A program made the translations under genes and the position numbers. A stretch of 64,000 nt of DNA from Loxodes magnus (Eukaryota; Ciliophora; Karyorelictea; Loxodida; Loxodidae): contig CAMPDV010000914.1 of NCBI GenBank assembly GCA_946699065.1, positions 62,001 through 126,000 on the forward strand. Direction: 5' to 3'. Below, in pieces: positions 1 to 64,000 of this stretch (position 1 is the first letter of the stretch; the number at the start of each line of letters is the position of its first letter). The notes beneath the pieces were generated by a model that was given only the letters and a program-made list of their open reading frames with translations, had not been told where the DNA came from and searched no databases.

Positions 1-41
1 CGGGAAGTTATTATTATACGGTGAGACTATGGGACGTCAAG

Positions 42-53
42 ACAGGTACCTGT
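42..53. repeat. 12-bp perfect palindrome, once per unit
   Basis: ACAGGTACCTGT equals its own reverse complement and encodes part of K-T-G-T-C-K. It recurs every 123 bp in nearly all units. It is broken only in the TGSCK variant (ggtagctgt) and in rare units such as the one at about 61565 (acaagtacc). A GACGTC palindrome lies a few bases upstream (33-38 in the first unit). Probably a by-product of the coding sequence; a protein-binding or structure-forming role is not shown. Confidence 0.8.
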
Positions 54-950
54 AAGACCATGAGTGGTCACACTAGCTATGTATGATCTGTGGCTATATC
101 CAGTGATTCAGAGTTCATCGTATCGGGAAGTCATGATGAGACGGTGAGACTATGGGACGTCAAGACAGGTACCTGTAAGACCATGAGTGGTCACACAGAT
201 TCTGTATTATCTGTGGCTATATCCAGTGATTCAGAGTTCATCGTATCGGGAAGTCATGATGAGACGGTGAGACTATGGAACGTCAAGACAGGTACCTGTA
301 AGACCATGAGTGGTCACACAGATTCTGTATGATCTGTGGCTATATCCAGTGATTCAGAGTTCATCGTATCGGGAAGTCATGATGAGACGGTGAGACTATG
401 GAACGTCAAGACAGGTACCTGTAAGACCATGAGTGGTCACACAGATTCTGTATTATCTGTGGCTATATCCAGTGATTCAGAGTTCATCGTATCGGGAAGT
501 TGAGATAAGACGGTGAGACTATGGGACGTCAAGACAGGTACCTGTAAGACCATGAGTGGTCACACAGATTCTGTATGATCTGTGGCTATATCCAGTGATT
601 CAGAGTTCATCATATCGGGAAGTTGAGATAAGACGGTGAGACTATGGGACGTCAAGACAGGTACCTGTAAGACCATGAGTGGTCTCACTAGCTATGTATG
701 ATCTGTGGCTATATCCAGTGATTCAGAGTTCATCGTATCGGGAAGTTGAGATAAGACGGTGAGACTATGGGACGTCAAGACAGGTACCTGTAAGACCATG
801 AGTGGTCACACAGATTCTGTATGATCTGTGGCTATATCCAGTGATTCAGAGTTCATCGTATCGGGAAGTCATGATGAGACGGTGAGACTATGGGACGTCA
901 AGACAGGTACCTGTAAGACCATGAGTGGTCACACAGATTCTGTATGATCT

Positions 951-2340
951 GTGGCTATATCCAGTGATTCAGAGTTCATCGTATCGGGAAGTCATGATGA
1001 GACGGTGAGACTATGGAACGTCAAGACAGGTACCTGTAAGACCATGAGTGGTCACACAGATTCTGTATTATCTGTGGCTATATCCAGTGATTCAGAGTTC
1101 ATCGTATCGGGAAGTTATGATGAGACGGTGAGACTATGGGACGTCAAGACAGGTACCTGTAAGACCATGAGTGGTCACACAGATTCTGTATGATCTGTGG
1201 CTATATCCAGTGATTCAGAGTTCATCGTATCGGGAAGTCATGATGAGACGGTGAGACTATGGAAGCTCAAGACAGGTACCTGTAAGACCATGAGTGGTCA
1301 CACAGATTCTGTATCATCTGTGGCTATATCCAGTGATTCAGAGTTCATCGTATCGGGAAGTCATGATGAGACGGTGAGACTATGGAACGTCAAGACAGGA
1401 TACCTGTAAGACCATGAGTGGTCACACAGATTCTGTATTATCTGTGGCTATATCCAGTGATTCAGAGTTCATCGTATCGGGAAGTTGAGATAAGACGGTG
1501 AGACTATGGGACGTCAAGACAGGTACCTGTAAGACCATGAGTGGTCACACAGATTCTGTATGATCTGTGGCTATATCCAGTGATTCAGAGTTCATCATAT
1601 CGGGAAGTTGAGATAAGACGGTGAGACTATGGGACGTCAAGACAGGTACCTGTAAGACCATGAGTGGTCTCACTAGCTATGTATGATCTGTGGCTATATC
1701 CAGTGATTCAGAGTTCATCGTATCGGGAAGTTGAGATAAGACGGTGAGACTATGGACGTCAAGACAGGTACCTGTAAGACCATGAGTGGTCACACAGATT
1801 CTGTATGATCTGTGGCTATATCCAGTGATTCAGAGTTCATCGTATCGGGAAGTCATGATGAGACGGTGAGACTATGGGACGTCAAGACAGGTACCTGTAA
1901 GACCATGAGTGGTCACACAGATTCTGTATTATCTGTGGCTATATCCAGTGATTCAGAGTTCATCGTATCGGGAAGTCATGATGAGACGGTGAGACTATGG
2001 AACGTCAAGACAGGTACCTGTAAGACCATGAGTGGTCACACAGATTCTGTATTATCTGTGGCTATATCCAGTGATTCAGAGTTCATCGTATCGGGAAGTT
2101 ATGATGAGACGGTGAGACTATGGGACGTCAAGACAGGTACCTGTAAGACCATGAGTGGTCACACAGATTCTGTATGATCTGTGGCTATATCCAGTGATTC
2201 AGAGTTCATCGTATCGGGAAGTCATGATGAGACGGTGAGACTATGGAAGCTCAAGACAGGTACCTGTAAGACCATGAGTGGTCACACAGATTCTGTATCA
2301 TCTGTGGCTATATCCAGTGATTCAGAGTTCATCGTATCGG
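951..2340 (+). repeat. 984-bp (8-unit) higher-order repeat
   Basis: Rare markers recur at an exact 8-unit spacing. The W-K-L substitution is at about 1261 and 2245 (984 bp apart). A GLT variant of GHT (ggtctcac) is at about 681 and 1666 (985 bp, explained by the one-base insertion near 1400). The order HDE-N, DSVL, YDE, DSV-TGA, HDE-KL, DSVS is shared between 951 and 1935. Copies are incomplete, and the second continues differently after about 2340. Confidence 0.75.
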
Positions 2341-61116: not shown

Positions 61117-61540
61117 TGCTGTGGCTATATCCAGTGATTCAGAGTTCATTGTATCGGGAAGTCATGATAAGACGGTGAGACTATGGGACGTCAAGACAGG
61201 TACCTGTAAGACCATGAGTGGTCACACTAGTGTTGTATATGCTGTGGCTATATCCAGTGATTCAGAGTTCATTGTATCGGGAAGTAGAGATAATACGGTG
61301 AGACTATGGGACGTCAAGACAGGTACCTGTAAGACCATGAGTGGTCACACTAGTGTTGTATATGCTGTGGCTATATCCAGTGATTCAGAGTTCATTGTAT
61401 CGGGAAGTAGAGATAATACGGTGAGACTATGGGACGTCAAGACAGGTACCTGTAAGACCATGAGTGGTCACACACATTATGTATTATCTGTGGCTATATC
61501 CAGTGATTCAGAGTTCATTGTATCGGGAAGTTATGATTAA
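61094..61540 (+). CDS. WD40 array segment, 148 codons, to SYD-TAA
   Basis: In register after 61115: HDK, SVVY-RDN twice, HYVL, then S-Y-D-TAA (61538-61540), with TAA at residue 17. Confidence 0.3.
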   Translation: MVTLVLYNAVAISSDSEFIVSGSHDKTVRLWDVKTGTCKTMSGHTSVVYAVAISSDSEFIVSGSRDNTVRLWDVKTGTCKTMSGHTSVVYAVAISSDSEFIVSGSRDNTVRLWDVKTGTCKTMSGHTHYVLSVAISSDSEFIVSGSYD

Positions 61541-62471
61541 ACAGTGAGACTATGGGACGTCAAGACAAGTACCTGTAAGAGCATGAGTGGTCACACACAT
61601 TATGTATCATCTGTGGCTATATCCAGTGATTCAGAGTTCATTGTATCGGAAGTAGAGATAATACGGTGAGACTATGGAACGTCAAGACAGGTACCTGTAA
61701 GACCATGAGTGGTCACACTAGTGTTGTATATGCTGTGGCTATATCCAGTGATTCAGAGTTCATTGTATCGGGAAGTAGAGATAATACGGTGAGACTATGG
61801 GACGTCAAGACAGGTACCTGTAAGACCATGAGTGGTCACACAGATTCTGTATGATCTGTGGCTATATCCAGTGATTCAGAGTTCATCGTATCGGAAAGTA
61901 GAGATAATACGGTGAGACTATGGAACTTCCAAGACAGGTACCTGTAAGACCATGAGTGGTCACACACATTATGTATTATCTGTGGCTATATCCAGTGATT
62001 CAGAGTTCATTGTATCGGGAAGTCATGATAAGACGGTGAGACTATGGGACGTCAAGACAGGTACCTGTAAGACCATGAGTGGTCACACTAGTGTTGTATA
62101 TGCTGTGGCTATATCCAGTGATTCAGAGTTCATTGTATCGGGAAGTAGAGATAAATACGGTGAGACTATGGGACGTCAAGACAGGTACCTGTAAGACCAT
62201 GAGTGGTCACACAGATTCTGTATTATCTGTGGCTATATCCAGTGATTCAGAGTTCATTGTATCGGGAAGTCATGATAAGACGGTGAGACTATGGGACGTC
62301 AAGACAGGTACCTGTAAGACCATGAGTGGTCACACTAGTGTTGTATATGCTGTGGCTATATCCAGTGATTCAGAGTTCATTGTATCGGGAAGTAGAGATA
62401 ATACGGTGAGACTATGGGACGTCAAGACAGGTACCTGTAAGACCATGAGTGGTCACACTAGTTCTGGATGA
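61541..62471 (+). repeat. Decayed, indel-rich stretch
   Basis: The first unit after SYD-TAA has several private framework changes: T18 respelled aca, G27 to S (acaagtacc) and T31 to S (agagcatg). The following units carry a missing G near 61648, an extra C near 61929 and an extra A near 62154. Open pieces are 61666-61854 (ending DSV-TGA), 61952-62194 and 62079-62471 (130 codons, ending SSG-TGA). This is the least homogenised place in the window. Confidence 0.8.
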
Positions 62472-62609
62472 ACTGTGTCTATATCCAGTGATTCAGAGTT
62501 CATCGTATCGGGAAGTCATGATGAGACGGTGAGACTATGGGACGTCAAGACAGGTACCTGTAAGACCATGAGTGGTCACACACATTATGTATTATCTGTG
62601 GCTATATCC

Positions 62610-64000
62610 GAGTGATTCAGAGTTCATTGTATCGGGAAGTCATGATAAGACGGTGAGACTATGGGACGTCAAGACAGGTACCTGTAAGACCATGAGTGGT
62701 CACACACATTATGTATCATCTGTGGCTATATCCAGTGATTCAGAGTTCATTGTATCGGGAAGTAGAGATAATACGGTGAGACTATGGGACGTCAAGACAG
62801 GTACCTGTAAGACCATGAGTGGTCACACAGATTCTGTATTATCTGTGGCTATATCCAGTGATTCAGAGTTCATTGTATCGGGAAGTCATGATAAGACGGT
62901 GAGACTATGGGACGTCAAGACAGGTACCTGTAAGACCATGAGTGGTCACACTAGTGTTGTATATGCTGTGGCTATATCCAGTGATTCAGAGTTCATTGTA
63001 TCGGGAAGTAGAGATAATACGGTGAGACTATGGGACGTCAAGACAGGTACCTGTAAGACCATGAGTGGTCACACTAGTGTTGTATATGCTGTGGCTATAT
63101 CCAGTGATTCAGAGTTCATTGTATCGGGAAGTAGAGATAATACGGTGAGACTATGGGACGTCAAGACAGGTACCTGTAAGACCATGAGTGGTCACACTAG
63201 TGTTGTATATGCTGTGGCTATATCCAGTGATTCAGAGTTCATTGTATCGGGAAGTCATGATGAGACGGTGAGACTATGGGACGTCAAGACAGGTACCTGT
63301 AAGACCATGAGTGGTCACACTAGTGTTGTATATGCTGTGGCTATATCCAGTGATTCAGAGTTCATTGTATCGGGAAGTAGAGATAATACGGTGAGACTAT
63401 GGGACGTCAAGACAGGTACCTGTAAGACCATGAGTGGTCACACACATTATGTATTATCTGTGGCTATATCCAGTGATTCAGAGTTCATTGTATCGGGAAG
63501 TAGAGATAATACGGTGAGACTATGGGACGTCAAGACAGGTACCTGTAAGACCATGAGTGGTCACACTAGTGTTGTATATGCTGTGGCTATATCCAGTGAT
63601 TCAGAGTTCATTGTATCGGGAAGTCATGATAAGACGGTGAGACTATGGGACGTCAAGACAGGTACCTGTAAGACCATGAGTGGTCACACTAGTTATGTAT
63701 CATCTGTGGCTATATCCAGTGATTCAGAGTTCATCGTATCGGGAAGTCATGATGAGACGGTGAGACTATGGGACGTCAAGACAGGTACCTGTAAGACCAT
63801 GAGGGGTCACACTAGTTATGTATATGCTGTGGCTATATCCAGTGATTCAGAGTTCATCGTATCGGGAAGTTATGATTATACGGTGAGACTATGGGACGTC
63901 AAGACAGGTACCTGTAAGACCATGAGTGGTCACACTAGTTATGTATCATCTGTGGCTATATCCAGTGATTCAGAGTTCATCGTATCGGGAAGTCATGATG
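62610..64000 (+). CDS. WD40 array segment open to the window edge (about 463 codons)
   Basis: After an extra G near 62609 (tatccgagtg) the frame is open to the last base. Units: HDK, HYVS-RDN, DSVL-HDK, SVVY-RDN twice, SVVY-HDE with [50 protein letters not shown] and the start of an HD unit. The last three units are the HDY-island block of 6832 and 11600, so the array returns to that class at the right edge. The segment is truncated by the window. Confidence 0.45.

Follow-up and report, generated by a model that had tools for sequence, protein, structure and literature searches.

The in-frame TGA, TAA and TAG triplets in the array of WD40 units described here are almost certainly sense codons of the Loxodes magnus genome: TGA stands for Trp inside genes and is the terminator at their ends, TAA and TAG stand for Gln. 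Because the conserved genes of this genome use that code, the apparent stops of the array stand for Trp and Gln at known variable surface positions of WD40 units. The stops are ordinary, and the array is probably an unusually large satellite of WD40 units. The window, i.e. the whole analysed stretch of 64,000 nucleotides, is a single tandem array with a period of 123 bp, and contig C914 (166,323 bp), of which the window is an inner part, consists of array from end to end.

1..64000, forward strand: tandem array of 41-codon (123-bp) WD40 units, about 520 copies, matched by PF00400 and other WD40 models

In one frame of 1351 residues, the PF00400 profile matched 32 stretches, and GH as well as WD-type residues were found; no RNA family reached its gathering score within the window. 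Diversity among the units lies mainly in codons 15, 17, 37, 38, 40 and 41. Codon 22, the only Trp of the framework, is always TGG in C914.

A count of standard stops in 513 of the 519 window units (the other six, each with a deleted base, were left out) gave 121, all in codon columns 15, 17, 38 and 40 and none in the other 37 columns. The sequence-only reading, which had described about 120 recurrent stops confined to these hypervariable columns, is thereby confirmed. The same holds for its remark that the residues concerned are also those where sense units vary most, as all four columns belong to the six most variable ones. Codon 40 contributes 76 TGA and one TAA, codon 15 contributes 25 TGA, codon 38 has 10 TAG, and codon 17 has six TAA and three TAG; the unit that contains the single TAA at codon 40 (60997) has an inserted base, and this TAA is probably an artefact. 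At least one stop is present in 102 of the 519 units. Examples are:

501..503, forward strand: TGA at codon 15, cassette TGA GAT AAG, reads W-D-K (25 of 513 units)
576..578, forward strand: TGA at codon 40, reads V-W-S (76 of 513 units)
2352..2354, forward strand: TAG at codon 17, cassette GTA GAT TAG, reads V-D-Q (3 of 513 units)
27648..27650, forward strand: TAG at codon 38, cassette GCA AAT TAG, reads A-N-Q (10 of 513 units)
30907..30909, forward strand: TAA at codon 17, cassette TAT GAT TAA, reads Y-D-Q (6 of 513 units)
52255..52257, forward strand: TGA at codon 40 within a divergent cassette, AGT TCT GGA TGA ACT, codons 39 and 41 also being changed (4 units)

It had further been proposed to look for framework stops elsewhere in the array. 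Among 1495 units sampled from C914 (including the window), C169 and C320, 402 of 405 stops fell into the same four columns; the three remaining stops are a TGA (codon 13) and a TAG seen twice (codon 25). Columns 36, 37 and 41 are variable yet stop-free. In 486 clean units, codons one base from a stop are absent from columns 36 and 37 and occur in only two units at column 41; the stop-bearing columns are also the columns holding such codons. Units carrying indels or differing in length from 123 bp were left out of the multi-contig, framework and missense:silent counts; three rows for framework codons 1 and 2 were dropped and attributed to a shift by adjacent indels, two of them being traced to the unit at 24093.

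The meaning of the codons was read from conserved genes of the same genome, which comprises 705,730,643 bases (705.73 Mb). Prp8 PROCN has a single match, which contains five TGA, two TAG and 12 TAA. In a comparison with solved Prp8 chains, TGA faces Trp in five of five cases, and TAA or TAG faces Gln in 11 of 14; the remaining three face Lys, Arg and Gly. The best 31 of 68 HSP70 matches contain 4-11 TAG and 11-20 TAA each, and none of these 31 contains TGA; since the top HSP70 matches lack this codon, its Trp meaning rests on Prp8. Four HSP70 loci were read through by eye: TAA and TAG occupy standard Gln positions, and the gene ends with TGA in all four, in two of them as TGA TGA. Trp for internal TGA, Gln for TAA and TAG, and TGA as terminator fit the karyorelict code (table 27), in which TAA and TAG are Gln and proximity to the poly(A) tail governs termination; its codon meanings are the same as in this genome, and no difference was seen. 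The genome paper states that L. magnus uses NCBI table 27, with TGA as Trp inside genes and terminator at gene ends, and describes a 706 Mbp assembly rich in tandem repeats (PMC11441545). The code of Amoebophrya likewise has all three stops as sense codons, with meanings shared with this genome (PMC6394959). Of the three explanations offered by the sequence-only reading, Prp8 and HSP70 thus uphold the one that treats these triplets as amino-acid codons, and a targeted process is not needed.

Both residues occur at these columns in relatives. Trp amounts to 7.9% at column 15, 12.0% at 38, 6.5% at 40 and 0.5% at 17; TGA was seen at 15, 38 and 40 among the 1495 array units and is absent from 17. 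Gln reaches 10% at column 17. Less in keeping with the code, Gln is rare at 38 (1.8%) and has a higher share (3.8%) at 15, a column in which none of the 1495 units has TAA or TAG. In a sister array, TAG and TGA give the reading HTNQVWS. As proof of the code, the residue profile of the relatives was rejected as too weak, as Trp and Gln fit without standing out. The array has probably arisen when a WD40 coding unit expanded in the manner of a satellite. Block copying and exchange hold the framework of the units alike; the residues used at 15, 17, 38 and 40 include Trp and Gln, which places TGA, TAA and TAG there and almost nowhere else.

The stops sort into 12 cassette forms, two of these in indel-bearing units, and on our reading they go back to about 5-8 distinct origins, so that the roughly 120 sites cannot be counted as independent. 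The stop codons spread when a few events were copied; the suggestion that early nonsense events were simply copied is correct in this respect, but copying does not explain the presence of the codons. The stop-free framework had been taken as an argument against random decay. Its zero count stands for the window, but the argument treats copied units as independent: the framework holds about 30 distinct changes, about one stop would be expected without any filter, and the probability of finding none is 0.30-0.41. Because there are so few independent changes, the clean framework codons prove little and have little force alone.

A rival reading is a silent, decayed pseudogene array under the standard code, in which a few nonsense changes were copied along with the units. 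It agrees with the reduction of the stops to a handful of copied cassettes, with the fact that every stop is one base away from a sense codon of its own column, with indels that break the frame as assembled, and with a framework missense:silent ratio of 76:21, which is at neutral expectation but weak as a test of coding, since the ratio for an intact WD40 gene on a cyanobacterial plasmid, 12:5, is close to that of the array. HSP70 and Prp8 overturned this reading, which is hardly credible in a genome whose conserved genes use the codons as Trp and Gln. Moreover, under uniform nonsense mutation the probability that five origins all fall into variable columns is 0.0004-0.002, and the indels look like assembly errors: overlapping contigs differ by gaps alone. 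Assembly errors in homopolymers of arrays of this kind are reported in the literature on Podospora WD40 repeats (PMC2873952, PMC12222747). One part of the window is nearly free of indels:

24093..55300, forward strand: near indel-free stretch with 1 indel-bearing unit, compared with 24 before and 8 after

If the variable columns change five-fold faster, the placement probability for five origins becomes 0.06-0.13. The position of the stops is then unremarkable, and their coincidence with variability would also be produced by a mutagenic process that targets the variable codons and generates stops as by-products. Such a process has a negligible probability, however, given that the codons are sense, that ordinary WD40 proteins vary at these columns too, and that the machinery is neither seen nor needed. 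Within-codon exchange was rejected as well; it could turn existing sense codons into TGA at 15 or into TAG at 17 but fails for 38 and 40.

With the codons read as sense, the array might be more than a satellite, namely one giant gene that is translated, or else a repertoire feeding expressed WD40 receptors. The unit frame holds phase over 33.2, 24.8 and 21.4 kb in C914, the variable codons lean towards missense (38:5), and the spacing of the variable columns equals that of four positively selected codons in Podospora WD40 units (PMC1805685). We nevertheless consider this unlikely. One array, that of C320, was present in every sample across about 333 kb, and the framework ratio is neutral, with the weakness of this test noted above. 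The array edges that were read consist of AT-rich DNA without a recognised domain: no Pfam family, NACHT included, was found in three frames over 6.7 kb on the 5' side of the C169 array, introns not being handled, and none in one frame beyond one 3' edge, where the first in-frame TGA follows about 0.4 kb past the array in DNA of 16% GC. A more specific version, in which Loxodes stores hundreds of kilobases of frame-kept, HNWD-like WD40 units as a source of surface cassettes for expressed recognition receptors, is quite improbable; if it were true, a code with almost no within-gene nonsense would let the WD40 store drift unbroken by point mutation.

The favoured reading, sense codons in a WD40-unit satellite, indicates that a table-11 reading can turn a difference in code into a striking stop pattern; a simple safeguard is to begin with conserved single-copy genes from that genome. 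In the L. magnus code, a point mutation within a gene hardly ever ends the frame. The array itself is of modest interest, as a very large in-frame satellite of WD40 units with surface variability as in self/non-self receptors. The literature searched contained no paper covering both Loxodes and WD40, and the words WD40 and satellite are both absent from the main text of the L. magnus genome paper (PMC11441545).

Close relatives were found neither in genome_contigs (nine loci, best segment 46% identity) nor among viral contigs, on plasmids (one 2-kb query) or in phages, where one 266-residue query gave two records at 32-34%. Two protein searches gave relatives of up to 54% identity among the matches listed. 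Bacterial and fungal WD40 proteins whose internal repeats are well conserved vary at largely the same columns as the array; they have 8-20 counted units of 42 residues (12 examples shown) and, among the matches listed, less than 55% identity to the window. A further parallel is offered by the HNWD/NWD genes of Podospora anserina, for which near-identical WD40 units, concerted evolution and four positively selected codons are described (PMC1805685). Shared with the array are the near-identical units and a diversity residing in two codon pairs that flank fixed residues with a spacing of 18; in the array, columns 15 and 17 flank D16, and columns 38 and 40 flank V39. An upstream NACHT region is a feature of HNWD/NWD that was not encountered at the one C169 5' edge read. 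Whereas the Podospora repeats belong to NACHT genes, number about ten and are read in the standard code, the array of the window comprises over 500 units.

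The window is a single tandem array of 123-bp units, each a WD40 repeat of 41 codons, which are numbered 1-41 within the unit. The sequence-only reading had reported about 120 in-frame stops of the standard code, restricted to variable WD40 positions. The recount of 513 of the 519 units gave 121, and no stop was found in these units outside codons 15, 17, 38 and 40.

In-frame stops by codon of the unit (513 of 519 units, standard code)
Codon 40: TGA 76, TAA 1
Codon 15: TGA 25
Codon 38: TAG 10
Codon 17: TAA 6, TAG 3

In a larger sample of 1495 units, taken from the window's contig C914 and two further contigs of the genome, C169 and C320, 402 of 405 stops occupied these four columns: TGA occurred at 15, 38 and 40 and once at 13; TAA or TAG occurred at 17 and 38 and twice at 25. 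The four stop columns are rich in codons that a single base separates from a stop; in columns 36, 37 and 41, which contain no stops, such codons are absent or confined to two units. The sites are not independent: all stops collapse to 12 cassette forms (sets of variable codons in one unit), two of them in indel-bearing units, and the stop cassettes are shuffled across unit backgrounds, with block copies of up to 15 units. The cassette GGA TGA ACT, present at 52138-52260 and in three more units as far as 62352, alters codons 39, 40 and 41 jointly and breaks V39, which is fixed in other units.

Three explanations had been offered for these stops: sense codons, by-products of a process targeted at variable codons, or copies of a few nonsense events. 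The last holds in so far as the stops reduce to 12 cassette forms spread by block copies; the first is right, as shown by conserved genes of the same genome (705,730,643 bases, 7,843 contigs; the window is C914 bases 62001-126000). The PROCN domain of Prp8 has one match, 405 codons with 5 TGA, 2 TAG and 12 TAA, which was translated with X for each of these codons and aligned to solved Prp8 chains. TGA stood opposite Trp in 5/5 cases, and TAA or TAG opposite Gln in 11/14, the others being Lys, Arg and Gly (one each). For HSP70, the top 31 of 68 matches, nearly full length, each contain 4-11 TAG and 11-20 TAA and no TGA; TGA is present in some weaker or partial matches. Four HSP70 loci, judged by eye, read through with TAA and TAG at standard Gln places and end in TGA, two of them in TGA TGA. 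The code is thus that of a karyorelict ciliate, with TGA as Trp inside genes and as terminator, and TAA and TAG as Gln. The array stops are ordinary sense codons of this known code. On contigs C45 (448-619 kb) and C86 (537-568 kb), near-identical HSP70 genes are clustered at a spacing of about 2.2-2.8 kb, some of those on C45 being oppositely oriented. HSP70 fragments on C854 (136-162 kb) recur about every 2,119 bp with at most 6 in-frame TGA each and look like decayed tandem copies.

How surprising the placement is was assessed by counting distinct codons, not copies, in 486 clean units, leaving out three framework rows attributed to indels. The 34 framework codons showed about 30 changes (22 missense, 8 silent, 0 stop) and the seven variable codons 31 (23 missense, 3 silent, 5 stop). 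The absence of framework stops is little proof, because only about one would be expected there without any filter (probability of none 0.30-0.41); the corresponding expectation for the variable columns is 1.2-2.8 stops. Five origins all falling in variable columns have a probability of 0.0004-0.002 under uniform nonsense mutation and of 0.06-0.13 if change is five-fold faster there. As a test of translation, the framework ratio of missense to silent changes, 76:21, is neutral, but the test is weak, since 12:5 is obtained for an intact bacterial WD40 gene; the variable codons are skewed to missense (38:5). A WD40 gene on the Nostocales plasmid pHT582-1 (L010, 377-4462), whose 12 counted units are 92% alike in DNA, lies near a transposon DNA-invertase and a transposase.

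Indels affect 33 of the 519 units: 24 of them in the first 24.1 kb, 1 between there and 55.3 kb, and 8 beyond. Two stretches of C320, each of 3,248 columns, differ from C914 by 0 mismatches and 3 gaps; three loci (C320, C1411, C5986) are identical to another part of C914, and a single C1411 locus differs by 1 mismatch and 5 gaps. Where the differences consist of gaps alone, the sequence comparison points to assembly error as the probable source of the indels. Further loci, maybe paralogous, differ in both mismatches and gaps. In indel-free stretches the unit frame stays in phase over 33.2, 24.8 and 21.4 kb. Three units (window positions 4644, 4769 and 13505) have a common odd one-base insertion (ACTAGATTCT); it resembles a mixture of two cassettes and may be a true chimera or an artefact of the consensus.

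C914 consists of array throughout (166 kb, 1350 anchors). On C320 every sample contained it, from an edge near 16.5 kb up to 349.7 kb, where the contig ends; on C169 every sample between 200 and 390 kb did, and a 5' edge lies near 391.3 kb. At both edges examined it starts or stops mid-unit, in AT-rich DNA. Pfam searches detected no family in three frames of the 6.7 kb upstream of the C169 edge, with introns not handled, or in one frame past the C320 edge, where the first in-frame TGA follows after about 0.4 kb, in DNA of 16% GC. Neither edge resembles that of a normal gene in this genome, and the array may be described as a satellite made from a WD40 coding unit. A first pass with a WD40 query gave 113,929 candidate places in the genome (150 scored), compared with 413 for HSP70; this count hints that WD40-unit arrays fill a sizeable share of the assembly.

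Code and repeat content of the present genome agree with the published Loxodes magnus macronuclear assembly, for which PMC11441545 gives 706 Mbp, read with table 27, and 231 Mbp of low-complexity tandem repeats. That assembly was made with Falcon and Racon from PacBio CCS reads, and its authors acknowledge misassembly of such repeats. The GC content of the array (42-45%) exceeds the 33.5% stated there for Loxodes magnus coding sequence. Under this code, TGA at codon 15 pairs with AAG at 17 to give SGSWDKTVRLW, and TGA at codon 40 gives HTDSVWS or HTSYVWS; TAA or TAG at 17 reads xDQT, TAG at 38 ANQVYA or DQVYA, and the sister array on C169 would read HTNQVWS via TAG and TGA. Among 186 WD40 relatives (by motif, unweighted), Trp occupies 7.9% of column 15, 12.0% of 38, 6.5% of 40 and 0.5% of 17, and Gln 10% of column 17, 3.8% of 15 and 1.8% of 38. 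Trp and the Gln at 17 fit this profile well, the Gln at 38 poorly. The 12 relatives displayed, those with the best conserved repeats, vary most at largely the same columns as the array; the stop columns are familiar variable columns of WD40 repeats. In Podospora repeats, according to PMC1805685, diversifying selection acts on codons 7, 9, 25 and 27, i.e. two pairs around fixed codons, and the spacing of 18 between the pairs equals the distance from the array's 38/40 to the next 15/17. The array belongs to a known kind and is unusually large for it.
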